Source: a virus. Taken from it: DNA of 27,505 nt. A program made the translations under genes and the position numbers. Below are positions 220-27,490 of the stretch, piece after piece; position 1 is the first letter of the stretch; the number at the start of each line of letters is the position of its first letter. The notes beneath the pieces were generated by a model. The model was not told the DNA's origin. It saw nothing but the letters and a program-made list of their open reading frames with translations, and did not search any database. The stretch lies in IMG/VR virus record IMGVR_UViG_3300017989_000374, positions 1 through 27,505 of that record; one strand, given 5' to 3'.

Positions 220-329
220 ACAAAGCAAGAAACCGCAAACACTATACACCATGCGAGGCCAAGCAACGCAAAAGGATAGGAAAGCAAGTTGAAAAGGCTT
301 TTAATATATTCACAGGCTATTACAAGTAA
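216..329 (+). CDS. Small basic protein, 37 aa, unknown function
   Basis: An ATG at 216 opens a 37-residue frame ending with TAA at 327-329. It overlaps the preceding stop (ATGA) and the following start (TAATG), so it is probably translationally coupled to both neighbours. The product is rich in Lys and Arg (MNKARNRKHY at the start, KQRKRIGKQ in the middle) and has no recognisable domain. Support comes mainly from the tight overlaps and from the fact that it fills the only gap between the endonuclease remnant and ninG. It could be a chance frame; no function is assigned. Confidence 0.5.
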   Translation: MNKARNRKHYTPCEAKQRKRIGKQVEKAFNIFTGYYK

Positions 330-880
330 TGCCACGCTGTAACCACTGCAATACCAAATTTAAAAAGCGTTACCCTAATCAGATGGGTGCGCTTTCCTTT
401 TGCTTAGATACTGACGAATGCACAACGGCGTTTTGGGATGCGGTTAAAGCCAAACGAATCAAAGACGCGCAAAAGAAAAAGCGACAATTCAAAAAGGATA
501 ACAAACGAAAACAAGACTATGAAAAAGACTTGGAAAAAGTGTTCAATGAATTTATAAGATTGCGTGACAAATGGAAACCGTGTATTTCATGCGATGCGAA
601 AGGTGGAGAATATACAATGTCGGCTGGTCATTATTTTCCGGCTGGATCACACAAGAACGTGAGATTTGACGAAGACAACGTTCACGGTCAATGTTGGTAT
701 AATTGCAACAAAAACAAAAGCGGCAATTTATCCGAATACCTTCCAAGGCTAATTGACAGAATAGGACAAAAGAGATTTGACGAACTAAGCCAAAGAAGGA
801 ACGAACCAAGAAGGTACACAATACCAGAACTAAAAGAACTGATTGAACATTACAAACAGAAAGTGAAGAATTTGAAATAA
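329..880 (+). CDS. ninG: NinG/Rap-like recombination protein
   Basis: This 183-residue protein matches the lambda NinG (Rap) family, which in lambda is a structure-specific endonuclease acting on Holliday junctions and D-loops during recombination. An N-terminal zinc-ribbon-like cluster has C4, C7, C25 and C31. A Lys-rich, probably helical stretch spans about residues 40-70. The core has C85-x2-C88, then AGHYFPAGS (H101), RFDEDNVHGQC (N117, H119, C122) and C126-N, the metal-binding His/Cys/Asn arrangement of the family. The length fits lambda NinG (about 200 residues). The ATG overlaps the previous stop. The gene belongs to the early/middle recombination functions, although here it lies just upstream of the terminase region. 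Confidence 0.9.
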   Translation: MPRCNHCNTKFKKRYPNQMGALSFCLDTDECTTAFWDAVKAKRIKDAQKKKRQFKKDNKRKQDYEKDLEKVFNEFIRLRDKWKPCISCDAKGGEYTMSAGHYFPAGSHKNVRFDEDNVHGQCWYNCNKNKSGNLSEYLPRLIDRIGQKRFDELSQRRNEPRRYTIPELKELIEHYKQKVKNLK

Positions 881-896
881 TTTGTATATTTATCGC

Positions 897-1142
897 ATGG
901 AATTAATACACAAAACACACGTATTCATTTTCTTATGCGCTTGGTTTGTCACTAACTTTGAGCCATTGACAAGAACATTACACATCGGATTGATGAAATT
1001 ACCGTTGCGGTTTCGAGGTTTATTCGAGCCGCTTTTTTGCTTTAAGTGTTTGACGCTTTGGTCAATTCTACTGATCACACAAGACGTTGTTCCGGCACTG
1101 TTATTTTCTTTTATTGCTTCTTGGTATGACAAAGACAATTAA
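897..1142 (+). CDS. Small integral membrane protein with CxxC motif
   Basis: The frame is open from a TTG at 882, but the ATG at 897 (MELIHKTHVF) is the more likely start, giving 81 residues. Two or three hydrophobic segments are visible: HVFIFLCAWFV near the start, then LWSILLITQDVVPALLFSFIASW near the end. A CFKC motif lies between them. The product is probably an inner-membrane protein of unknown role. Its end (ASWYDKDN) overlaps the start of the next gene by 17 bases. A holin-like role is possible from topology alone, but a better holin candidate lies in the lysis cassette at 22876. Confidence 0.65.
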   Translation: MELIHKTHVFIFLCAWFVTNFEPLTRTLHIGLMKLPLRFRGLFEPLFCFKCLTLWSILLITQDVVPALLFSFIASWYDKDN

Positions 1143-1329
1143 CAAGGAGGATTTCGAACAATACCGTGTAAACGGATGGACGACCAAACAACGAATGAAG
1201 GAACTTGCGCGTCTTTACAATGAACACGTTGAACCAAGCAAACAAATCAAATCTTGCATGTGTAGCAAGGTCAACCGCAAAATATATCACAACATCATTT
1301 TCACTTGGTATGACCAAAAAGCAAATTGA
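1126..1329 (+). CDS. Small conserved phage protein, 67 aa, unknown function
   Basis: The open frame extends upstream to 1087. The start at 1126 (MTKTINKEDFEQYRV) is preferred because it gives a soluble protein and the same overlap geometry as the next junction. The product is basic and probably helical, with TKQRMKELARLYNEH followed by SKQIKSCMCSK. I do not recognise a named family. It ends in TWYDQKAN and overlaps the next gene by 20 bases. The base string around its start (TTGGTATGAC) recurs at the start of the next gene. It sits in an operon-like run towards the terminase genes. Confidence 0.6.
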   Translation: MTKTINKEDFEQYRVNGWTTKQRMKELARLYNEHVEPSKQIKSCMCSKVNRKIYHNIIFTWYDQKAN

Positions 1330-1822
1330 TACTGAAGTTCCGGTGATTTATGACGCGTTGTTGCTGACCGCGCAAAGAATGTGCGCCAAATACAACCGGA
1401 CATATTCCCCGAATGAAGTGGTATCAATTGCATACGAATACGCGGTCAAGGTCAAAGGAAAGATTGAAACAGCAGAAATGCTTAAACGATGGATGACGGC
1501 GCGAATATGTCAAGAAATCGCAAAGACCAACAGCACAACAAATAGAAAACTATCTGTGACAGCTTTTGAAACGATCGACAACATATTAAGAATTGAAGAA
1601 GCTGACGTTGATCCATACGAAGCCGAAGTGAAAGCGGTTGAATCATACGCAAAGATTAAAGACAGGGTGAAACGCCGCGTGTTTGAAGTTTACTACTATG
1701 AAGGAATCAACACATGTCGCAAAATGGAGAATTACTTTGGTATTAGCCGCGTTTCCGCAATGAACTTGATTCAAGAAATGAAACAAGACTTGCAAGAAAT
1801 CGCAAAAAAACAAATATATTAA
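1310..1822 (+). CDS. Sigma-70 region-4-like HTH transcription regulator
   Basis: The frame opens at 1205, but the ATG at 1310 (MTKKQIDTEVP) fits best because it gives a compact 170-residue protein and a short overlap with the previous gene. The C-terminal third contains KDRVKRRVFEVYYYEG, then TCRKMENYFGISRVSAMNLIQEMKQDL. That is a helix-turn-helix layout like sigma region 4 or ArpU-type phage late regulators. The N-terminal half is helical (AQRMCAKYNRTYSPNEVVSIAYEYAV) and resembles the start of small sigma-like factors. Placement just upstream of terminase suits a late-gene activator, as in many siphophages; this is inference. A DNA-binding terminase accessory factor is an alternative. Confidence 0.6.
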   Translation: MTKKQIDTEVPVIYDALLLTAQRMCAKYNRTYSPNEVVSIAYEYAVKVKGKIETAEMLKRWMTARICQEIAKTNSTTNRKLSVTAFETIDNILRIEEADVDPYEAEVKAVESYAKIKDRVKRRVFEVYYYEGINTCRKMENYFGISRVSAMNLIQEMKQDLQEIAKKQIY

Positions 1823-1838
1823 ACAAAATAAATAAGTG

Positions 1839-2171
1839 ATGAAAGTACAATTGAAAGAAGAGTACGTGAACTGTAAAATCATTGTGACGACACAGTTCAA
1901 TCGAAAAGTAAAAATTGACACAAGCCGCGAAGATGTAATGTTGTTCGCTGATGTAGAAGCATTCAAATTCATGTTTGAACCAGTAGAAACAAAGAAGAAG
2001 AAAAAGACCAAAGAACCACTGATTGAAGCGGTTGAGAATGATGGCGAATTCTTCGAGGATAAACCAAAAGCACTTGAAGAACTAACATTGAAGGAATTAC
2101 GCGAAAAGTTCCCAGATATAGAGGCGCGCTCAAAAAAAGACTTTCTTAAACAACTAGCCGGAGAAGAATAA
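1839..2171 (+). CDS. Hypothetical protein with C-terminal HeH/LEM-like motif
   Basis: A GTG at 1836 and an ATG at 1839 are both possible starts; the ATG (MKVQLKEEYVNCKIIV) is preferred, giving 110 residues. The N-terminal half is beta-rich and ends in MFEPVETKKKKKTK. An acidic linker follows, then ELTLKELREKFPDIEARS and KKDFLKQL. That C-terminal segment resembles the short two-helix HeH/LEM or SAP-like motif seen at the ends of several phage structural and DNA-associated proteins. No catalytic residues are seen. The TAA overlaps the next ATG (TAATG). It may be an accessory head or DNA-binding protein, but the evidence is thin. Confidence 0.55.
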   Translation: MKVQLKEEYVNCKIIVTTQFNRKVKIDTSREDVMLFADVEAFKFMFEPVETKKKKKTKEPLIEAVENDGEFFEDKPKALEELTLKELREKFPDIEARSKKDFLKQLAGEE

Positions 2172-2401
2172 TGATATGGCTATCAATTGCAATCGTCATT
2201 TCATCTGGTGTTTTTGTCGCTGGATGGAAGGCGGTTGTCAAGATGAAAGAAGATGGACACACAGAGCGACTAAAGATAGACATTGAAGGCGACCAAGTAG
2301 AGAAGTACAACGAATGGTTGGCCGACACAAACGAACACATGTTATCCGACAAAATAGCAACCAAATTCAAAATAATAATAAAGAATGGCGACCAAGAATA
2401 A
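2171..2401 (+). CDS. Small single-pass membrane protein
   Basis: This 76-residue product begins with one hydrophobic segment (IWLSIAIVISSGVFVAGW, about residues 2-19). A charged, probably helical soluble part with KEDGHTERLKIDIEGDQ follows. The N-terminal segment has no clear signal-peptidase site, so it is more likely an N-terminal anchor than a secreted protein. The gene overlaps the previous stop by one base and the terminase small subunit start by 17 bases, so it is in the same operon. No family was recognised. Possible roles include membrane-linked superinfection functions, but nothing in the sequence shows this. Confidence 0.6.
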   Translation: MIWLSIAIVISSGVFVAGWKAVVKMKEDGHTERLKIDIEGDQVEKYNEWLADTNEHMLSDKIATKFKIIIKNGDQE

Positions 2402-2819
2402 AATGACCAAAGAAAAGTTTGAGGCTATTTGCGTGGAACTAGAAGAAACACACCACGGGTTACTTCACCTTTGTAAAAAACATGGTCTAAATTCACGTAG
2501 ACCGTTCCATACCTACTTGGAAAAGGACACCGAACACATGAACAGATACGCGCGCGCACGTGACAAACAACTGGACTATCTTGAAGAACTACTTCGTGAA
2601 GCGTCATTTGATGGTAGCAAGGATGGAGAAACCGCCGGAACAATTAACATTGGTTCAAACCACATTCAACGTGATCGGCTGAAGGTAGACACACTGAAAT
2701 TCATTTTAGGCAAATTAAGAGCGCGCAAATGGGGTGACAAGATCGATGTAACAAGTGACGGTGAAAAGATCGACGCAATTAATGTGACAATTGTGCGACC
2801 TGAAGACAAGGAGGGTTAA
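2385..2819 (+). CDS. terS: Terminase small subunit
   Basis: The 144-residue protein has the layout of Sf6-type small terminases. An N-terminal HTH region (residues about 8-50, LCKKHGLNSRRPFHTYLEKD) precedes a helical oligomerisation segment starting MNRYARARDKQLDYLEELL. The characteristic C-terminal RDRLKVDTLKFILGKLRARKWGDK follows at about residues 97-120. Small terminases recognise the packaging site and regulate the large subunit. Placement immediately upstream of the large subunit supports the call. The start ATG (MATKNKMTKEK) overlaps the previous gene; the alternative ATG seven codons in would also keep the HTH. The end has IDAINVTIVRPEDKEG, a tail common in this family. Confidence 0.85.
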   Translation: MATKNKMTKEKFEAICVELEETHHGLLHLCKKHGLNSRRPFHTYLEKDTEHMNRYARARDKQLDYLEELLREASFDGSKDGETAGTINIGSNHIQRDRLKVDTLKFILGKLRARKWGDKIDVTSDGEKIDAINVTIVRPEDKEG

Positions 2820-2864
2820 CAAAAATGTGTAATCCTACGGGGTGAAGTATGCAAAGAGTGTGAA

Positions 2865-4031
2865 ATGGAAATCAAAGGCACGATAGTATTTGAAAAGAAT
2901 TGGGCGGCGTTACAGTCGCCTTTTCGTTTTATTGAGAATCGCGGCGGTTCACGTTCTTCAAAGACTTGGAGTTTGTGTCAATGCGTTATACTTGACTGTC
3001 TGGCTGATCCTGTTGCTGATTGGTCAATTGTACGTAAAACGTTCCCAGCACTTCGGGCAACCGTCATGCGTGACTTTATCACTGTATTGTCTGACATGAA
3101 CATGTACAACCAGGTAAGTCACAATAAAACGGAACACGTTATTTTGTTTTCGAACGGCGCACGTGTCGAATTCTTCAGCGTAGACAACGAACAAAAGCTT
3201 CGAGGGCGCAAACGCCGCAAGTGTTGGGTGAACGAATGCAATGACCTATGGACAGAAGACTTTGTTCAACTGAATATGCGTACCACTGAAAAGGTTGTGT
3301 TTGATTATAACCCGTCAGAAGTAGTTGGATGGATTGATGACTTGCCACAGGAAGAAATCAAAGTGATTCATAGTACGTACAAAGACAATCCGTTTCTTGA
3401 AAAGTCTATTGCAAATCAGATTGAAGACCTGAAGCGAACTGATCCTGTATTATACGACATTTATGCGCTAGGTATTCACGCAACAAGCCGTGAAAATGTT
3501 TACCAAATGTGGGAAGTGTTACCAGAGAAACCCGAACGATTCAAGCAATATTGTTACGGTCTTGACTTTGGATATGTTCACCCGCTCGCCTTGGTTCGTA
3601 TTTGGTATCACGAAAATGAACGGTATTACGAAGAAGTGATATACGAAAGTTATCTGAAGCCAAACGACATGCTTCCAAAGTTTGAAGAACTAGGAATTGA
3701 AAAGGACGTTGAAATAATAGCTGACCATGCGCGTCCAGATTTGATCGCCGACCTTCGCGCTGAAGGGTACTACGTTTTGAATGCAAACAAAGACGTTCAG
3801 GCCGGAATAACAATCGTGCGTTCATGTATCAACTATGTCGATAAAAACGCAAAGAATATCCAACGCGAAAACAAAGCGTACAAACACAAGAAGATTAACG
3901 GCGAAATTCGAGACAAAGAGATTCACAAAAGGAATGACGATGCGATGGACGCAATTCGATACGGTGACATGTGGATTCACAAATACAGCATTGAAGGGAT
4001 AGACGAAACACTTTCATTCAGTCTTGATTAA
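2865..4031 (+). CDS. terL: Terminase large subunit (packaging ATPase and nuclease)
   Basis: This 388-residue protein is the motor and nuclease that cuts and packages phage DNA. The N-terminal ATPase has a Walker A motif GSRSSKT (about residues 28-34) and a Walker B-like KCWVNECN (about 119-126, with E124 as the likely catalytic glutamate). A coupling-type segment FDYNPSEVVGW lies near residues 145-155. The C-terminal RNase-H-like nuclease starts at YGLDFG (D234), continues through ADHARPDLIADLRAEGY, and ends with NDDAMDAIRYG (D358, D359, D362). This matches the PBSX/Terminase_3 type. The length is slightly short but complete. A 45-base gap separates it from the small subunit and contains no convincing gene. 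Confidence 0.95.
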   Translation: MEIKGTIVFEKNWAALQSPFRFIENRGGSRSSKTWSLCQCVILDCLADPVADWSIVRKTFPALRATVMRDFITVLSDMNMYNQVSHNKTEHVILFSNGARVEFFSVDNEQKLRGRKRRKCWVNECNDLWTEDFVQLNMRTTEKVVFDYNPSEVVGWIDDLPQEEIKVIHSTYKDNPFLEKSIANQIEDLKRTDPVLYDIYALGIHATSRENVYQMWEVLPEKPERFKQYCYGLDFGYVHPLALVRIWYHENERYYEEVIYESYLKPNDMLPKFEELGIEKDVEIIADHARPDLIADLRAEGYYVLNANKDVQAGITIVRSCINYVDKNAKNIQRENKAYKHKKINGEIRDKEIHKRNDDAMDAIRYGDMWIHKYSIEGIDETLSFSLD

Positions 4032-5487: not shown

Positions 5488-8164
5488 CAACACAAACGCA
5501 TACATCAAGACTTCAGCTGGAAACATTTCACTTGTCGAAGGTTCAAGATGTTCTTTGAATTTTGGTATTGCTGACATTCGTGATGTTGGTAGTCGAGGCG
5601 GTACATTCTCGAAACAATTGAATGCGGTATGGGATGACGATAACCACAGAATATTTGGACAACTTTTTGATGTAAACGGCACAACGTTTGATTTTGATTT
5701 CAACCGCCGTGTTGAATGTGAGATACTACAAAACGGAATTGTAATTGTTGACAACGCCTATCTTCAGCTTATCGAAATAAACGAAGAACAACACACGGCA
5801 CAGGATCAAGCACAAGGAAGTTATTCGATTCTTGTTAAGTCAGCACAACGCGACTTGTTCACAAAGATGGGAGCGCAAGAACTGACCGATTTGGATTTCA
5901 CGTATTTGAATCACACATACAACGCCGCGAATGTTGTAGCTAGCTTTACGCATACAGTTGCAGACGGCTACGTTTATCCGATGGCGATCAATGACGATAA
6001 CACATTTCTTTTAACTGACTTCCGTCCGGCAATTTATGTCAATGAGTATTTCAAGCAAATTCACGCTACAAATGGATTCAGTTTTGAAGTGCGCGACTTT
6101 CCGACCTTTGACAAGTTGGTGATACCTTTTGCAAGCGACACACCCGCAATTGATAACACTGACTTTTTAGTTGAAGCGGTCAAGTCAAGTTTTTCAAGTG
6201 ATGGTGGAACACTTACGTCATGGACTGAAGTCACAGACAACGAAAATTTATTCAATCCAACAACGGGAGTGTATGATGTTCCTGTGTATTTGTCAGGCGG
6301 TCAAGCAATCAATATCAACGTAGCAATTGATTGTGATTTCATTCTAGACAACACAAGCGGAGCGGACGCATATCTTGTTGACATAACAAACAGTGGATTT
6401 GATAGGTCAGTAAGATACAAGGGATTTTTTCGAGTGTACAAGAATGGAGCGTTGTACAATTCAGGAAACTTTGTTTTTCCAAATAGCGGAGGCGTTGAAT
6501 TCTTTGAATCGGACACGCCAATATCAAACGGTGATAACACGATATATTCAGACACTTCAACAATCAATATCCCAGTTGGAAACGTATTACCAACGGACAC
6601 ACTTACATTCGAAATTGATTCAGAAGTAACCACAGGAAACAACACACCTCCATTCATGGTTTGGAAGGATGCAGTAAGTTCAACGGCAAACAATGTGACA
6701 GTTAACACACGGATTGATATTAATGATGTGACAGTACGCGCAGAACTTACAGCGAATTCAATCGGCTTCGGATTCGAACAAGACATGAATAACTTTGTAC
6801 CGCCTAAGATTAAACAGAAAGAATTTGTGAAAGCGGTGTGTAACATGGCGCAACTTTGGGCGTACCCTGACGAAGACAATCCAAATAAAATAATATATCA
6901 ACCGCGTGACGCTTACCTTGATGAAGGAACACAAAAAGATTGGAGCGAAAAACTAGCCAAAGACAAAAATCAATTAGTTCGTTTCCTTCCTGAAATTGCA
7001 AGCAAGCGTAAAATATTCACGTACAAGGAAGACAAAGACGTTTACAATGTTCAATACAAGGACGCAACAAACGAAGTCTATGGACAGGCTGAATTCATAT
7101 ACGATACAGAATTTCAACAGAAGGTTGATAAACTAGAACTTGTTTTTAGTCCAACACCAATGACTGAAATAAGCATCAATGCCGTTGTACCTTCGTTCGT
7201 TGGTACAGCGCCAAACAACAACATTCGCATATTGATTCACAACGGAACTGCAATATGTAACACATATGACATATTTGATTTTGCAACAACGGGTGAAACG
7301 GGTTTAACTGATTATCCTGTTGTAAGTCATTTTGATGATCCATACAATCCGACTATTGACATCAATTTTGCGGTGTGTGACTATTACTATTACCAAGGAA
7401 TCACACTAACGAACAACAATCTGTTTAATCTGTACTGGAGGCGTACCATGTACCAACTGAACAAGGGAAAGATGTTGACGGCAATGTTTGACTTGTCTGT
7501 TGCTGATATTGCAGACTTGAAACTGAATGACAAAATATATTGTCGAAATGCGTTTTGGAATATCAACCGAATAATTGACTTTGATGCGAACGGCAACAGT
7601 CTAACAAAAGTCGAATTGTTGAGTATCGACGACGAATTACCAGTATTTCAAAGGAAAAAATTTATACCAAGTTTGCCAAACGGCACAGATAACCCAATAA
7701 AGGGATTGTTATCCGAATTGTACGTACATAACAATGTAAACTTTTCAGATGGTCAAGTAACCATAAAAGGAAAGGGTAACGTGATCAACCAGAACGTCAA
7801 AGCGATTGTGATCGGTAGTGATGGCGTTATACAAGAAGATGGGTACTACCTAAATGGCGAAAAGGTCGGTGAAGCAAGTGACGAAATCGTGAACAACTTG
7901 AAATCGTCGGTGAACATCGATTCAGATTACACGATTGATCCAACCACGGCAGATGTGTTTTACTTGGTTGCTGCCACATTAACGATAACACTACCTGATG
8001 CAGACGCCTATACGAATAGACGCATCTACATCAAAGATGTAAACCAAGGAGGTCAAACAATAACGGTTGCAGCCGGAAACATAGACACACAAACAAGTGT
8101 GAATTTAACAAACAACGATTCATTAACACTTCACGCCAAAGGCGGAAAATGGAATATTTTATAA
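5480..8164 (+). CDS. Large tail-tip/baseplate protein with fibre-like C-terminus
   Basis: At 894 residues this is the longest gene in the window. The N-terminus (DIRDVGSRGGTFSKQLNAVW, then FDFDFNRRVECEILQNG) resembles large tail-tip proteins of Bacteroidota phages. The middle is beta-rich, and a helical patch around residues 430-480 contains KQKEFVKAVCNMAQLWAYP. The last 90 residues (SDYTIDPTTADVFYLVA, LTITLPDADAYTNRRIYIKD, LTLHAKGGKWNIL) match the C-terminal beta module common at the ends of phage fibre and tail-spike proteins. It may be a tail hub or baseplate protein that anchors the fibre encoded next. No peptidase or lysozyme motif was recognised. Confidence 0.65.
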   Translation: MANNTNAYIKTSAGNISLVEGSRCSLNFGIADIRDVGSRGGTFSKQLNAVWDDDNHRIFGQLFDVNGTTFDFDFNRRVECEILQNGIVIVDNAYLQLIEINEEQHTAQDQAQGSYSILVKSAQRDLFTKMGAQELTDLDFTYLNHTYNAANVVASFTHTVADGYVYPMAINDDNTFLLTDFRPAIYVNEYFKQIHATNGFSFEVRDFPTFDKLVIPFASDTPAIDNTDFLVEAVKSSFSSDGGTLTSWTEVTDNENLFNPTTGVYDVPVYLSGGQAININVAIDCDFILDNTSGADAYLVDITNSGFDRSVRYKGFFRVYKNGALYNSGNFVFPNSGGVEFFESDTPISNGDNTIYSDTSTINIPVGNVLPTDTLTFEIDSEVTTGNNTPPFMVWKDAVSSTANNVTVNTRIDINDVTVRAELTANSIGFGFEQDMNNFVPPKIKQKEFVKAVCNMAQLWAYPDEDNPNKIIYQPRDAYLDEGTQKDWSEKLAKDKNQLVRFLPEIASKRKIFTYKEDKDVYNVQYKDATNEVYGQAEFIYDTEFQQKVDKLELVFSPTPMTEISINAVVPSFVGTAPNNNIRILIHNGTAICNTYDIFDFATTGETGLTDYPVVSHFDDPYNPTIDINFAVCDYYYYQGITLTNNNLFNLYWRRTMYQLNKGKMLTAMFDLSVADIADLKLNDKIYCRNAFWNINRIIDFDANGNSLTKVELLSIDDELPVFQRKKFIPSLPNGTDNPIKGLLSELYVHNNVNFSDGQVTIKGKGNVINQNVKAIVIGSDGVIQEDGYYLNGEKVGEASDEIVNNLKSSVNIDSDYTIDPTTADVFYLVAATLTITLPDADAYTNRRIYIKDVNQGGQTITVAAGNIDTQTSVNLTNNDSLTLHAKGGKWNIL

Positions 8165-14141: not shown

Positions 14142-14779
14142 TCATTGCAATTGCCACAATGGAAGGACGCGAAGAATTCCTTGCAAACACGATTCGTTCA
14201 CTTGCGCCACAGTGCGACCAATTAAGAATTTACAAGAACCATCACCGTGACATTGATTACACAGACAACGCAAAGTTCTTCTTCCTTCAGGAATACGATC
14301 GATCGGTGTACTACCTAACATGTGATGATGACATCATATATCCGGCCGACTACGTTCAAAAGATGATTCAAGGCATCGAAACACACGGCGGCATCGTCAC
14401 GCTACATGGTAGAATATTGAGATACAAAGGGCTTTCGTATTACCGTGGCCGACACAAAACGTTTCATTGCGCAAAATGGGTGAATCGAACACAGCGGATC
14501 CATGTCGGCGGTTCGGGTGTTATGGGATGGCGTACCGATCAATTTAACCCGGTTGACCTTTACAAACACGAACATCAAAAAATGTCTGATTTGATTGTGT
14601 CACTAGAAGCCGCAAAAAAGGGCGTCCCAATTACAGTATTGGAACACCCTAAAAACTACGTGACCGTCCAGCCTGTGCCAAACGAAAAAACAATCTTTGG
14701 TCAACACGTCATGAACGACACTATCCAGTCCTCTTTGGCAGATGAGGTTTTAAGGATTCTCCCAAAGCTACCCAATTGA
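14126..14779 (+). CDS. Glycosyltransferase-like protein
   Basis: This 217-residue protein starts MSMEVVIAIATMEGREEFL; a second ATG two codons in is equally possible. It has an N-terminal Rossmann-like beginning and a DxD-type motif in YYLTCDDDIIYPADYVQKM (D67-D69). A conserved middle section RIHVGGSGVMGWRTDQFNP looks like the substrate loop of family 2-like enzymes. It is the last gene of the glycosyltransferase cassette. Its 3' end overlaps the 3' end of a minus-strand gene by 59 bases, so the two transcripts converge. Its acceptor is unknown; virion proteins or host surface glycan are both plausible. Confidence 0.75.
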   Translation: MSMEVVIAIATMEGREEFLANTIRSLAPQCDQLRIYKNHHRDIDYTDNAKFFFLQEYDRSVYYLTCDDDIIYPADYVQKMIQGIETHGGIVTLHGRILRYKGLSYYRGRHKTFHCAKWVNRTQRIHVGGSGVMGWRTDQFNPVDLYKHEHQKMSDLIVSLEAAKKGVPITVLEHPKNYVTVQPVPNEKTIFGQHVMNDTIQSSLADEVLRILPKLPN

Positions 14780-15407
14780 AAACAAGTATGTGCGGCAAAG
14801 ACATCACGTGTTGATACTTCGTTATGTCGCCTTGTGTCAATCCGAACACAACCGTCAACCATTGTTCGTCAGTTGAACGGCCTTTGTTCGCTTCTTCAAG
14901 TTCTTCTGGTTCTGGTTCATACCCTTCAGGAAATTCGCCGTCTTCATCTGAATCAAAAACCGTTGGGTATTTTTCACCGACTTGCTTCCGGTAAGTTCTG
15001 AATTCCATGACAGCACCATATACGTCCGTTATTTTAACATCATATACCGCATCATTCAAATCATACAGAATTTTGACAGCGTTGGGCAGTGCATCGGTCA
15101 AACTGTTATTCACAAGCAGAACGTCAAGATCAATATAATTAGCCAAAGATAAGCGGCTCAATTTTTTGATTTGATTGCCGTTCACTTCTTGTTTGTACTT
15201 CTCACTGACTGGTGACTTGATAAATGAAATTGCAGTTTTCAGCTTTCGAAGATCACGTTCACCGAGGTCGTCAGGAATATCAAAAAACACGTCACCGATT
15301 TCAAGCACAAAATCAGTCGGAAGGATTCCTTTCGTGGCGATTATTTCAAGAACTTCTTGCCATTGTTCAACGGTGCAATCATTCCACGTTAGAGGCTTGA
15401 ACTCCAT
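14721..15407 (-). CDS. Second minus-strand tail-assembly-chaperone-position protein
   Basis: A TTG at 15413 extends the frame, but the ATG two codons later (MEFKPLTWNDCTVEQWQ, from 15407) is preferred, giving 228 residues. The N-terminal half is helical. The middle has DVKITDVYGAVMEFRTYRK, and a very acidic linker (DSDEDGEFPEGYEPEPEE) follows. The C-terminus has DEQWLTVVFGLTQGDITK and HVMSLPHILVFNWVAL. No enzyme motif is seen. It overlaps the upstream minus-strand gene by 29 bases. Two overlapping genes of this size near a tape measure are typical of tail assembly chaperones (lambda gpG/gpGT), but here they lie on the opposite strand. The role is inferred. Confidence 0.6.
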   Translation of the reverse strand: MEFKPLTWNDCTVEQWQEVLEIIATKGILPTDFVLEIGDVFFDIPDDLGERDLRKLKTAISFIKSPVSEKYKQEVNGNQIKKLSRLSLANYIDLDVLLVNNSLTDALPNAVKILYDLNDAVYDVKITDVYGAVMEFRTYRKQVGEKYPTVFDSDEDGEFPEGYEPEPEELEEANKGRSTDEQWLTVVFGLTQGDITKYQHVMSLPHILVFNWVALGESLKPHLPKRTG

Positions 15408-25213: not shown

Positions 25214-25702
25214 ATGGAAATATTTACACAGATAAGTGACCGTTATTACATTGGTAACAAAGGAACGGTAAGAACAATAGGAAAAAACCTATCACAAAAA
25301 ACAAAGTCGAACGGATATAAGGAAGTCTGTTTGTATATTGATAAGAAACCAAAAATGAATTATGTTCATAGATTGGTTGCTCAATATTTTATTGGTGACA
25401 TTCCAGAAGGTTATGCGGTTAATCATAAGGATGGTAATAAAGCAAATAATGATGTTTGTAATTTAGAGATTGTTTCGTATTCAGAAAACAGTAGCCATTC
25501 TTATCATGTTTTAGGTAATAAAATAAAACCTAAAAAAGGTGCTGAACATCACAAATCAAAAGTAACTGAAGAAGAAGTGTTAAAAATTAGAAGCCTTTAT
25601 GATTCTGGTGCAGATACTAGAGATATACATAATGGTTTTCCAATGTTGTCTTTAAGTGGAATCAGAAAAATTTGTTACAGATCGACTTGGAAACATTTAT
25701 AA
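25214..25702 (+). CDS. NUMOD4-HNH homing endonuclease
   Basis: From the ATG at 25214 the protein is 162 residues. It opens with a NUMOD4-like segment (MEIFTQISDRYYIGNKGTVR) and then an HNH nuclease core (YVHRLVAQYFIGDIPEGYAV, NHKDGNKANNDVCNLEIVSY, SENSSHSYHVLG). The catalytic NHKDG and N-x-x-N-L-E residues are intact. The C-terminal part (KSKVTEEEVLKIRSLYDSGA) is a helix-turn-helix-like DNA-binding module common in these enzymes. Composition is far more AT-rich than the flanking genes, typical of a recently mobile gene. It has its own promoter and no overlap with its neighbours. It is probably a free-standing homing endonuclease that spreads by cutting alleles lacking it. Confidence 0.92.
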   Translation: MEIFTQISDRYYIGNKGTVRTIGKNLSQKTKSNGYKEVCLYIDKKPKMNYVHRLVAQYFIGDIPEGYAVNHKDGNKANNDVCNLEIVSYSENSSHSYHVLGNKIKPKKGAEHHKSKVTEEEVLKIRSLYDSGADTRDIHNGFPMLSLSGIRKICYRSTWKHL

Positions 25703-25719: not shown

Positions 25720-25800
25720 CGTTCAATAAATTTTAGGTTTTTCTATTTTTCATAGAAGTTTAGATGTTTACCGCCTTCGTTAATTCGTGGGCGGTTTTCT
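25720..25800 (+). ncRNA. Candidate short non-coding RNA or attenuated leader
   Basis: Between the promoter at 25687-25716 and the terminator ending near 25800 there is no convincing ORF. A transcript of about 80 bases would hold two hairpins: TTCTAT-TTTTC-ATAGAA (25741-25757) and the terminator stem (25770-25795). It could be a regulatory RNA or a leader whose terminator is controlled. This is a prediction from architecture only. Confidence 0.35.
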
Positions 25801-25804
25801 TTTG
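25770..25804 (+). terminator. Intrinsic terminator upstream of the small early-type genes
   Basis: ACCGCC (25770-25775) pairs with GGCGGT (25790-25795) around a 14-base loop (TTCGTTAATTCGTG), followed by TTTTCTTTT. It would end transcription from the lysis/endonuclease side and also any RNA from the promoter at 25687. Confidence 0.7.
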
Positions 25805-25833
25805 CCGTTCATCCTTGATATTTACCGTTCATC
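25805..25833 (+). repeat. Paired direct repeat CCGTTCATC, 20-base spacing (site 1)
   Basis: CCGTTCATC occurs at 25805-25813 and again at 25825-25833, start to start exactly 20 bases, about two helical turns. The pair lies upstream of the promoter candidate at 25846-25874. A second pair with the same spacing lies at 26883-26911. An operator or activator site is the likeliest reading. Confidence 0.7.
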
Positions 25834-25841
25834 ACAATTTG

Positions 25842-25874
25842 CGTATTGCGATACGAGATATTGCCATACATTTG
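25842..25874 (+). promoter_or_regulatory. Promoter candidate with palindrome in its spacer
   Basis: TTG at 25846-25848, 18 bases, and TACATTTG at 25867-25874 fit the Bacteroidota promoter form. The 14-base palindrome CGTAT-TGCG-ATACG (25842-25855) overlaps the -33 element and could be a repressor site. The first ATG downstream is at 25890, giving a leader of roughly 10 bases. Confidence 0.5.
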
Positions 25875-25889
25875 AAGAAAAACAAAAGC

Positions 25890-26123
25890 ATGAAAGCAAC
25901 ATTGAACAAAAAGCTACACGAGCAAGCGTTGGCAATTATTGAAATGATTGAAGAAGCTGAACGCAGAATTGAACAGCAAGAGCGAAACAAAATTGAGGTA
26001 GTTCCAGTATTCTTTGACATTGCATCGCATTGTGATAAACGCATAGCAACACACCGCGCCGCTATCGAACGCCTCGAAAAGTCTTACATTGAAACAATTA
26101 ACAGAATAAATAAAGCAATATGA
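25890..26123 (+). CDS. Small helical/coiled-coil protein, 77 aa
   Basis: The frame extends upstream to 25764, but that part reads through the terminator, repeats and promoter. The ATG at 25890 (MKATLNKKLHEQALA) is therefore chosen. The product is nearly all helix and highly charged (IIEMIEEAERRIEQQERNK, HRAAIERLEKSYIETINRI), a likely short coiled coil. No family was recognised. It is the first gene of a small-gene operon running to the right edge and overlaps the next gene by four bases. Confidence 0.65.
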   Translation: MKATLNKKLHEQALAIIEMIEEAERRIEQQERNKIEVVPVFFDIASHCDKRIATHRAAIERLEKSYIETINRINKAI

Positions 26124-26461
26124 AAACATCATTTGAAACACTCAAACAAGTTGACGGAATGATTGAATACATTACCGAAGAAGACGACAGAACATTGATG
26201 TACTGTTACATTTACCGCCGTGTATTGGATTGGACACCGAAAGAAGTAGCCGACCGATTTGGTCACAGTCCAGTCACAGTAAATTCATACGCACAACGCG
26301 CCGCAATTGTCTTCGATTTGCCGAATTATAAACATTCAATCTATTATACTATACTAGAAGCATGTCAAAACGCCGTTAAACTTGAGCAATTAAAGCGACA
26401 GCGCAACCATTTGAATGAAGTATCAGAACGATTGACAAAAAGACTAATAAAAAAAGCATGA
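26120..26461 (+). CDS. Small HTH protein, sigma region-4-like
   Basis: The 113-residue product begins MKTSFETLKQVDGMIEYITE. It then has a clear helix-turn-helix: YIYRRVLDWTPKEVADRFGH followed by SPVTVNSYAQRAAIVFDLPN (about residues 31-70). A basic helical C-terminus (LEQLKRQRNHLNEVSERLTK) follows. The HTH resembles region 4 of sigma factors or small phage regulators. Its position downstream of an apparent control region, second in a small-gene operon, suits a transcription regulator. Neighbouring genes overlap by four bases at each end. Its target is unknown. Confidence 0.6.
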   Translation: MKTSFETLKQVDGMIEYITEEDDRTLMYCYIYRRVLDWTPKEVADRFGHSPVTVNSYAQRAAIVFDLPNYKHSIYYTILEACQNAVKLEQLKRQRNHLNEVSERLTKRLIKKA

Positions 26462-26694
26462 TTTACAAAGTAACACTGTACGATGAAGATCTGCCAGAAG
26501 TCGCAAGGTATCACAAGCAAACCAAACAAGATGCTTTGGACTTATTGGAGTCTTTATTTCTTGACTATGACATTGACGCAAAAGAAGACTTCAAAATCCC
26601 AAGTGATGAACAGGCGAATATTCCGGCGGTTACTTGTTGGAGCAAAGGAACAACCGAGATCACTTGCAATTTTGCAGTTGAAATAAATTTTTAA
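26458..26694 (+). CDS. Hypothetical protein, 78 aa
   Basis: The product is small and acidic with an alpha/beta pattern: MIYKVTLYDEDLPEVARYH, KQDALDLLESLFLDYDIDAK, then ITCNFAVEINF. It may be a single-domain protein of the small phage early type. I do not recognise a family. Its ATG overlaps the previous stop (ATGA), and the next gene starts two bases after its own stop, so expression is likely coupled. Confidence 0.6.
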   Translation: MIYKVTLYDEDLPEVARYHKQTKQDALDLLESLFLDYDIDAKEDFKIPSDEQANIPAVTCWSKGTTEITCNFAVEINF

Positions 26695-26696
26695 CC

Positions 26697-26882
26697 ATGC
26701 GACCAATGACAAAAAACGACTTGCTGTTTTTCCTTGTGATGATTTTGATTATGTGCATGCTTGGCCTTTGGGTTAAGGGTGAAATTGAAGGCAACCAGGA
26801 ACCGCCGAAGCCAGAAAACGGAAATATTACGCTCGATGACGATAGTATTGAGTTCACGAAAAAGCCTTTTGAATTCAATTAA
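26697..26882 (+). CDS. Small single-pass membrane protein, 61 aa
   Basis: One transmembrane segment (LLFFLVMILIMCMLGLWV, about residues 9-26) is preceded by a basic N-terminus (MRPMTKND) and followed by a polar acidic tail (EPPKPENGNITLDDDS). The inside-positive rule suggests the tail is outside the cytoplasm. There is no lipobox or cleavage site. An alternative in-frame ATG at codon 4 exists. A role in superinfection exclusion or host takeover is possible but not shown. The stop abuts the second pair of CCGTTC repeats. Confidence 0.6.
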   Translation: MRPMTKNDLLFFLVMILIMCMLGLWVKGEIEGNQEPPKPENGNITLDDDSIEFTKKPFEFN

Positions 26883-26911
26883 CCGTTCATCAAGCACACA
26901 GACCGTTCGTC
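26883..26911 (+). repeat. Paired direct repeat CCGTTC(A/G)TC, 20-base spacing (site 2)
   Basis: CCGTTCATC at 26883-26891 and CCGTTCGTC at 26903-26911 repeat the site-1 pair with the same 20-base spacing. The pair begins directly after the stop codon of the preceding gene and lies 12 bases before the next possible ATG. Confidence 0.65.
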
Positions 26912-26922
26912 ACATTCCCAAA

Positions 26923-27330
26923 ATGGAAACCGGACGTATCACATACATTTACAGAAAACATTTGAACATGAGAAAACAAGGATTTTTGGAGATTATCAGA
27001 AACAAAGCACCTTATCCAACTGTGTATGTTGATGGACTTGCAAAAGAGATTGACCACATACACGGTGAAAACATCGTGACCAAGGACGGATTCGAATACA
27101 ACTATCGTCACGTTGCGCGTCGATTTTACGCGGCCGACTTGCCTGTTCGCGTTTATGATGCGATCATTGAAGAACTGATGCAACACTATATCTTTGGCGA
27201 CGAACGACAAGACGCAGTGTTGATTCGTATATCCGACAAATACGGACTAGAACAAAATGAAGTAAAGCGGATCAATGACCGTATCACAGTCGAAGACATG
27301 AAAGAATACCAAAAGAAAAAAAATGGATAA
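26923..27330 (+). CDS. Hypothetical phage protein, 135 aa
   Basis: The frame is open from 26761, but the upstream part overlaps the membrane-protein gene and the repeats. ATG 26923 (METGRITYIYRKHLNMRKQG) or ATG 26968 (MRKQGFLEIIRNK) are realistic starts. The first is listed because it is in frame and close to the repeats. The body has TVYVDGLAKEIDHIHGENIV, NYRHVARRFYAADLPVRVYD and IRISDKYGLEQNEVKRINDR. The C-terminal part looks helical and could be a degenerate HTH. No family was recognised. A weak AACATTTG (26957-26964) just upstream of the second ATG is a poor -7 match. Confidence 0.6.
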   Translation: METGRITYIYRKHLNMRKQGFLEIIRNKAPYPTVYVDGLAKEIDHIHGENIVTKDGFEYNYRHVARRFYAADLPVRVYDAIIEELMQHYIFGDERQDAVLIRISDKYGLEQNEVKRINDRITVEDMKEYQKKKNG

Positions 27331-27490
27331 CATCTACACACCACCAAAGTTCAAGACGGTTACACCGCCTATTGAACACCACAGAACAACGCCGGATCGT
27401 TTGCACATTGACGACGATCACCGTCGAATGTACTGGACAAACTTTGACGAAAAATTAATCAAGGCAATTCGCCGAATCAAAAACCAATAA
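27323..27490 (+). CDS. Small hypothetical protein, 55 aa
   Basis: The ATG at 27323 overlaps the previous stop by eight bases and the frame ends at TAA 27488-27490. The product starts MDNIYTPPKFKTVTPPIEHH, has an acidic/His stretch (RLHIDDDHRRMYW) and a helical basic end (FDEKLIKAIRRIKNQ). The A-rich leader (a run of A before ATG) and overlap support it being real. No domain was recognised. An ATG at 27503-27505, the last three bases of the window, may be the start of the following gene. Confidence 0.55.
   Translation: MDNIYTPPKFKTVTPPIEHHRTTPDRLHIDDDHRRMYWTNFDEKLIKAIRRIKNQ

Follow-up and report, generated by a model that had tools for sequence, protein, structure and literature searches.

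Paired Direct Repeats Resembling LytTR Boxes Upstream of Predicted Promoters in a Lineage of Uncultured Bacteroidota Phages

Results and Discussion

Genes and Repeat Pairs at the Right End of the Window

The DNA analyzed here, referred to as the window, is an entire 27.5-kb IMG/VR record without terminal repeats. The left and middle portions encode a terminase, a portal protein, a tape-measure protein, and further virion proteins. Among deposited phages, the terminase is most similar (32–33% identity) to its counterparts in Bacteroides and Parabacteroides phages, and no close relative of the window DNA was found among 50,697 deposited phage records. The right end carries small genes without assigned function behind two sites, each of which contains a pair of CCGTTCRTC 9-mers on the + strand. 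The sequence CCGTTCATC appears at positions 25805, 25825, and 26883, and CCGTTCGTC appears at position 26903. A pattern scan of the window thus recovered the four copies, the one-base difference, and the 20-base pairing as given in the preliminary description, together with TACATTT at 25867 and 26944, which are 42 and 41 bases past the starts of the second copies, respectively. No further copy of CCGTTCRTC was found on either strand of the 27.5-kb window, and the reversed-pattern control gave none. The count of four compares with 0.62 expected from shuffles, and 1 of 100 shuffles reaches four. No other 9–44 bp pair with three or fewer mismatches in total was found across the window. The half-sites at both sites are direct repeats with a pitch of 20 bp and a spacer of 11 bp.

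Site 1 is followed on the + strand by an operon of four small genes at 25890–26123 (77 aa, no PHROG match), 26120–26461 (113 aa), 26458–26694 (78 aa), and 26697–26882 (61 aa). The first and third of these have relatives in record G039. The product of the gene at 26120 contains a helix-turn-helix (HTH) that is similar to region 4 of sigma-70; its match to PF08281 (E = 1.6e-5, just short of the cut-off) is the sole noteworthy Pfam resemblance. Site 2 directly abuts the stop codon of the fourth gene and is followed on the same strand by genes at 26968–27330 (120 aa, no assigned function) and 27323–27490 (55 aa), with the end of the record soon after.

Both sites were originally described as intergenic; two listed open reading frames, at 25764–26123 and 26761–27330, overlap them. 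The listed starts at 25764 and 26761 are start-codon artefacts, and the likely starts are ATG 25890 and ATG 26968. ATG 25764 lies upstream of the predicted promoter at site 1, and at site 2 ATG 26968 suits the predicted promoter better than ATG 26923.

A likely intrinsic terminator for the upstream genes is located at 25770–25803 on the + strand, where the stem ACCGCCT/GGGCGGT is followed by TTTTCTTTT; it ends one base ahead of the first repeat of site 1. The fold has a calculated energy of −14.6 kcal/mol (z = −2.99), and 1 of 200 shuffles was equally stable. This terminator was missed by a consensus scan, which gave an overlapping alternative stem. Just upstream of it, a gene at 25214–25702 encodes an HNH endonuclease (PF13392, E = 3.3e-15) that may be a mobile homing-type insertion.

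Predicted Promoters behind the Repeat Pairs

Previously, the −7 element of Bacteroidota promoters, with the consensus TAnnTTTG, was placed at −12 to −5 in Flavobacterium johnsoniae (PMC6847099). This signature of the sigma-ABfr promoter occurs behind both repeat pairs on the + strand. At site 1, the box TACATTTG at 25867–25874 is an exact match that begins 33 nt past the proximal half-site. At site 2, the box TACATTTA at 26944–26951 has one mismatch and begins 32 nt past the proximal half-site, an offset equal to that found at other phage and host sites. Transcription is predicted to start near 25879 and 26956 for sites 1 and 2, respectively. Because TACATTTG corresponds to the Bacteroidota −7 box, the repeat pairs would occupy about −45 to −75 of the promoters. 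The distal and proximal half-sites of site 1, both CCGTTCATC, are found at 25805–25813 (about −74 to −66) and 25825–25833 (about −54 to −46), respectively. The corresponding half-sites of site 2 are found at 26883–26891 (about −73 to −65) and, with the sequence CCGTTCGTC, at 26903–26911 (about −53 to −45). The position of the −33 element implied by the −7 box is about 7–10 bp from the repeat, and the −33 motif itself is weak. The distance from the start of the box to the ATG is 23 nt at site 1 and 24 nt at site 2.

Similarity to LytTR Binding Sites

The half-site consensus reported for LytTR-domain regulators is (TA)(AC)(CA)GTTN(AG)(TG) (PMC8826819). Three of the four window copies fit this consensus as ACCGTTCAT or ACCGTTCGT; among them are the proximal copies of site 1 (ACCGTTCAT) and site 2 (ACCGTTCGT). 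The distal copy of site 1, GCCGTTCAT, fits at eight of nine positions only, because a G precedes it. In published LytTR sites, the direct repeats are mostly separated by 12 bp, with a minority at 11 or 13 bp, and tend to lie 10 bp ahead of the −35 box; the examples from Bacteroides show an 11-bp spacer with TATCTTTG about 34 nt downstream (PMC6193735). The 11-bp spacer in the window falls inside the range of 11–13 bp, the −7 box follows 32–33 nt downstream, and both pairs are placed shortly upstream of the −35 element, here the −33 element. The half-site fits the LytTR consensus at the published spacing, and the chromosomes of Bacteroidota were therefore examined for the same element. The earlier proposal of a protein that would bind cooperatively to one face of the helix is supported: each site has the form of a sequence-specific protein site, with two direct half-sites on one helical face upstream of a predicted promoter.

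Distribution of the Element in Uncultured Phages

The pattern CCGTTCRTC-N11-CCGTTCRTC was found in at least 119 IMG/VR stretches, where arithmetic with 17 effective bases gives a chance expectation of a handful. With a free gap of 2–32 bases, a 20-bp spacing was seen in 73 of 101 distinct sampled pairs, and every other spacing was represented by eight pairs or fewer. In 22 motif-bearing phage records totalling 672 kb, 38 close pairs of the 9-mer were found, each member with at most one mismatch, and the spacing is exactly 20 bp in 37 of them. The same records contain 71 exact copies of the 9-mer; 63 belong to 20-bp pairs, and 57 of these fall in non-coding DNA, which makes up 8.7% of the sequence. 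The 9-mer is thus not scattered at random through coding DNA without a preferred spacing, as 37 of 38 pairs are at 20 bp and the copies are mostly non-coding. The full element was not found in the 50,697 deposited phage records, and no paper describing it was found in the literature search.

Alignment of the site contexts revealed a shared T-rich spacer and, at almost every AT-rich site, an A right behind the second repeat. At 75 distinct AT-rich sites, TAnnTTTG was found 62 times against 4.3 expected, and it starts mainly 31–34, 41, or 51–53 nt past the second repeat. These offsets are about one and two helical turns apart, as required for an activator that touches RNA polymerase from one face.

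The sites belong largely to one phage lineage. At 104 of the 119 motif loci listed, two or more of the encoded proteins have relatives in the 22 fully read records. The window and the other larger records, 16 in all, share ten protein families of the portal, capsid, terminase, tail, and similar types. The remaining motif loci outside the lineage are mostly GC-rich chance matches. GC-rich pair matches in IMG/VR and in genomes (L017, L050, L113, L125, and similar) were treated as chance coding matches. Two loci without lineage proteins (L105 and L118) have the full promoter geometry and may be other phages. Five near-identical viral contigs outside the lineage (L018, L036, L043, L048, and L053) contain a pair followed by the non-promoter-like sequence CCGTTCATCACCGTGCTTCACCGTTCATCAGCG, probably a chance match.

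In the full records, each genome has one to five sites, which lie almost exclusively between genes, with a first gene immediately after them on the same strand. The genes that follow the sites head small-gene operons; in G041, the site is directly ahead of the gene for an ERF single-strand annealing protein. Short identical direct repeats with a regular pitch are also a property of replication iterons, and the pairs might be such a structural DNA element that acts apart from transcription. The number of copies, two and rarely three per site, and the one to five scattered sites per genome argue against this explanation, as does the constant placement of the sites, in both distance and orientation, relative to TAnnTTTG and the downstream gene; its probability is negligible.

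The Element in Host Chromosomes

A perfect copy of the element is present in a Saprospiraceae MAG (L137), where it is followed by TAGATTTA 32 nt downstream and lies ahead of an operon (271–3573) that encodes a hydrolase, a LytS-type kinase, and, at 2860–3573, a response regulator with LytTR (PF04397, E = 2.5e-19) and PF00072 (E = 2e-18) domains. The same operon occurs in a related genome (L325, 2451–5685, with the LytTR regulator at 2451–3155) behind an element that is one mismatch off, with the box at 32 nt. LytS-LytTR operons also lie directly behind the element in L316, L317, L321, L326, and L327, and divergently adjoin it in L323. The boxes of the ACCGTTCATC type ahead of host LytS/LytTR operons are mostly followed by TAnnTTT at 31–32 nt, with L321 lacking it. 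This arrangement suggests autoregulation. In two further Saprospiraceae MAGs, L127 (3971–4966) and L134 (2556–3445), the element is located between two tandem genes for stand-alone LytTR proteins of 117–123 aa, and no membrane inhibitor gene was identified beside them. The element adjoins LytTR genes in L126, L200, and L247 as well. L126 is a Chloracidobacterium MAG, outside the Bacteroidota, in which the pair at 3818 is beside a LytTR gene with TAnnTTT 53 nt downstream. Upstream of the LytS/LytTR operon of L331, a single half-site is recognizable.

Sites with at most one mismatch are enriched in host genomes (33 against 14 in the control). Among 16 such non-coding sites in Bacteroidota, from two genome samples, LytTR or LytS genes are near nine, a count that used wider windows for the non-coding than for the coding set. 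Against an assumed background of 4–8%, the lower value being derived from 14–21 LytTR genes per host genome, the binomial probability of this association is 2e-9 to 9e-7. With equal 1.5-kb windows, LytTR association is found for 6 of 16 non-coding and 1 of 14 coding sites (Fisher p = 0.06). TAnnTTT appears at 31–32 nt in 8 of the 16 non-coding sites. Pairs with up to two mismatches were not enriched in host genomes (36 against about 50) and are dominated by chance. A half-site plus −7 box gave 30 matches in 298 host genomes and 23 in the reversed control, with no clear excess. In a tree of LytTR domains, the box-linked members group together more closely than in any of 500 shuffles without forming one clade, and near-copies inflate this clustering. 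A search of the 298 genomes of the sampled order for prophages with the window capsid gave one weak match.

Search for the Binding Protein in Phage Records

The HTH protein encoded at 26120 was previously put forward as the protein that binds the pairs. No relative of it was found in IMG/VR or in any of the 21 further records with the motif that were examined. Since conservation of the site is not matched by conservation of this protein, it is disfavored as the binder. The identification of the pairs as operators of a phage lysogeny repressor would be in keeping with several intergenic sites per genome ahead of operons and with a two-turn spacing that suits cooperative binding. However, the half-sites are direct and CCGTTCATC is not self-complementary, which speaks against a two-fold symmetric repressor operator, and the sites precede the promoter instead of overlapping it. 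The boxes also occur at host two-component operons, and conservation of the site does not extend to the nearby HTH gene. A lysogeny operator is therefore very improbable.

No match to PF04397 (LytTR) was found in the window or in 46 related phage records, whereas the same search returned 14–21 matches in each of three host genomes. In a maximum-sensitivity search with a profile built from Bacteroidota LytTR proteins, the lowest E values were 0.2 among 1091 phage ORFs and 0.27 among 3295. A LytTR regulatory system (LRS) comprises a LytTR gene and a membrane inhibitor, with the LytTR gene in the same element as the sites, and no such gene was detected in these 47 phage records. The window and most of its relatives are fragments, so that a phage-encoded regulator could sit in the missing parts. 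A phage LytTR protein that is too divergent for detection or encoded in unsampled parts of the genome would have precedent in the LytTR-domain proteins reported for Pseudomonas phages (PMC11945551). The negative PF04397 search and the best E value of 0.2 in the sensitive search argue against a hidden phage LytTR. Records G009, G017, and G045 have terminal repeats of 121–127 nt and are thus probably complete, which argues against one in unsampled parts. The presence of such a protein is quite doubtful.

A family of sigma-like proteins (140–175 aa) is the best candidate for a phage-encoded activator or repressor of another kind, in which case the likeness to host boxes would be convergence. Members are found in 16 of the 22 motif records, including the four with terminal repeats, and relatives are found in L206–L245. 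G039_33 (14537–15064) contains sigma-70 region 2, and G045_45 is another member. In several records, the gene is part of a long operon downstream of the site, and control encoded by a phage typically involves a single regulator that acts at one to five sites of the genome. However, a sigma factor contacts DNA at about −35 and −10, and the pairs are at −45 to −75. The family was absent in a sensitive search of the window, G021, G016, and G043, although G021 and G043 are 32–34 kb long. In hosts, LytS-LytTR operons are preceded by this element with its 32-nt promoter geometry unchanged, which also argues against a binder encoded by the phage. A non-LytTR phage regulator is thus unlikely, and the sigma-like proteins may serve later phage transcription, possibly as a sigma factor or late activator.

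Proposed Mechanism

The pairs are probably LytTR activator boxes through which a LytTR regulator of the host drives phage operons. A LytTR-domain activator would bind both direct ACCGTTC(A/G)TC half-sites from the same side of the helix, a short way ahead of a host-type sigma-ABfr promoter with the −7 box TAnnTTTG. The activated promoter would drive a small-gene operon of the Bacteroidota phage, presumably early in infection. If the activation is supplied by a LytTR response regulator of the host, then the phage operons would be expressed when that host signaling pathway is on. Activation is favored over repression because the sites are upstream of the promoter at helically phased distances. 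The regulator is most likely encoded by the host, since no LytTR was detected in the phages and hosts carry the box at the same distance before LytS/LytTR operons. On balance, the evidence tilts toward the broader proposal that host LytS/LytTR signal transduction governs the non-structural operons of this whole lineage of uncultured Bacteroidota phages, which would have no regulator of their own.

Comparison with Known Systems

The closest precedent is provided by the CtrA boxes of pili- and flagellotropic phages of Alphaproteobacteria, whose promoters contain dense, high-scoring CtrA sites; binding and regulation by the host regulator were demonstrated by experiment, and a function in lytic deferment was proposed (PMC9437464). 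In both cases, phage promoters carry sites for a host response regulator as a lineage-wide genomic signature, and the sites found here are likewise concentrated in phage promoter regions across the lineage. The systems differ in that the regulator proposed here is of the LytTR rather than the OmpR type, the phylum is Bacteroidota, the promoter is of another type, and the binding is deduced from the DNA. If the proposal is correct, control of phage genes by host response regulators would extend from CtrA in Alphaproteobacteria to LytTR in Bacteroidota.

Known LytTR boxes, including AgrA P2/P3 (PMC4227749), those of HdrR/BrsR in S. mutans, and those of Bacteroides (PMC6193735), are direct repeats of approximately 9 bp, 11–13 bp apart, that are located just upstream of the promoter and are often autoregulatory. 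The phage sites differ from these in that their genomes lack a detected LytTR gene, the core CCGTTCATC and the 20-bp pitch are distinct, and some of the pairs are one or two helix turns further upstream. The phages would read the physiological state of the host through boxes like those of host autoregulated LytTR promoters. Use of the host LytTR regulator AgrA has been proposed for phages with agrBCD and without agrA, according to the account cited in PMC11945551. As described there, those phages carry signal and sensor genes, whereas the phages examined here have DNA boxes only and belong to another phylum.

The element provides a candidate binding-site code for Bacteroidota LytS/LytTR systems, consisting of ACCGTTCATC pairs at 20 bp that are 32 nt before TAnnTTTG. 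This code is a simple prediction that can be tested with a reporter, and the regulator could help to identify the hosts of uncultured phages. No description of the targets of the box-linked Bacteroidota LytS/LytTR systems was found in the literature searched. In one host genome, three tandem half-sites with a 20-bp pitch appear at 7938–7986 of L322 (G047:C16:131937–131985), with a −7 box 31 nt past the last. The gene behind this triple site encodes a probable secreted protein, and the same host regulator might here act on a target other than its own operon.
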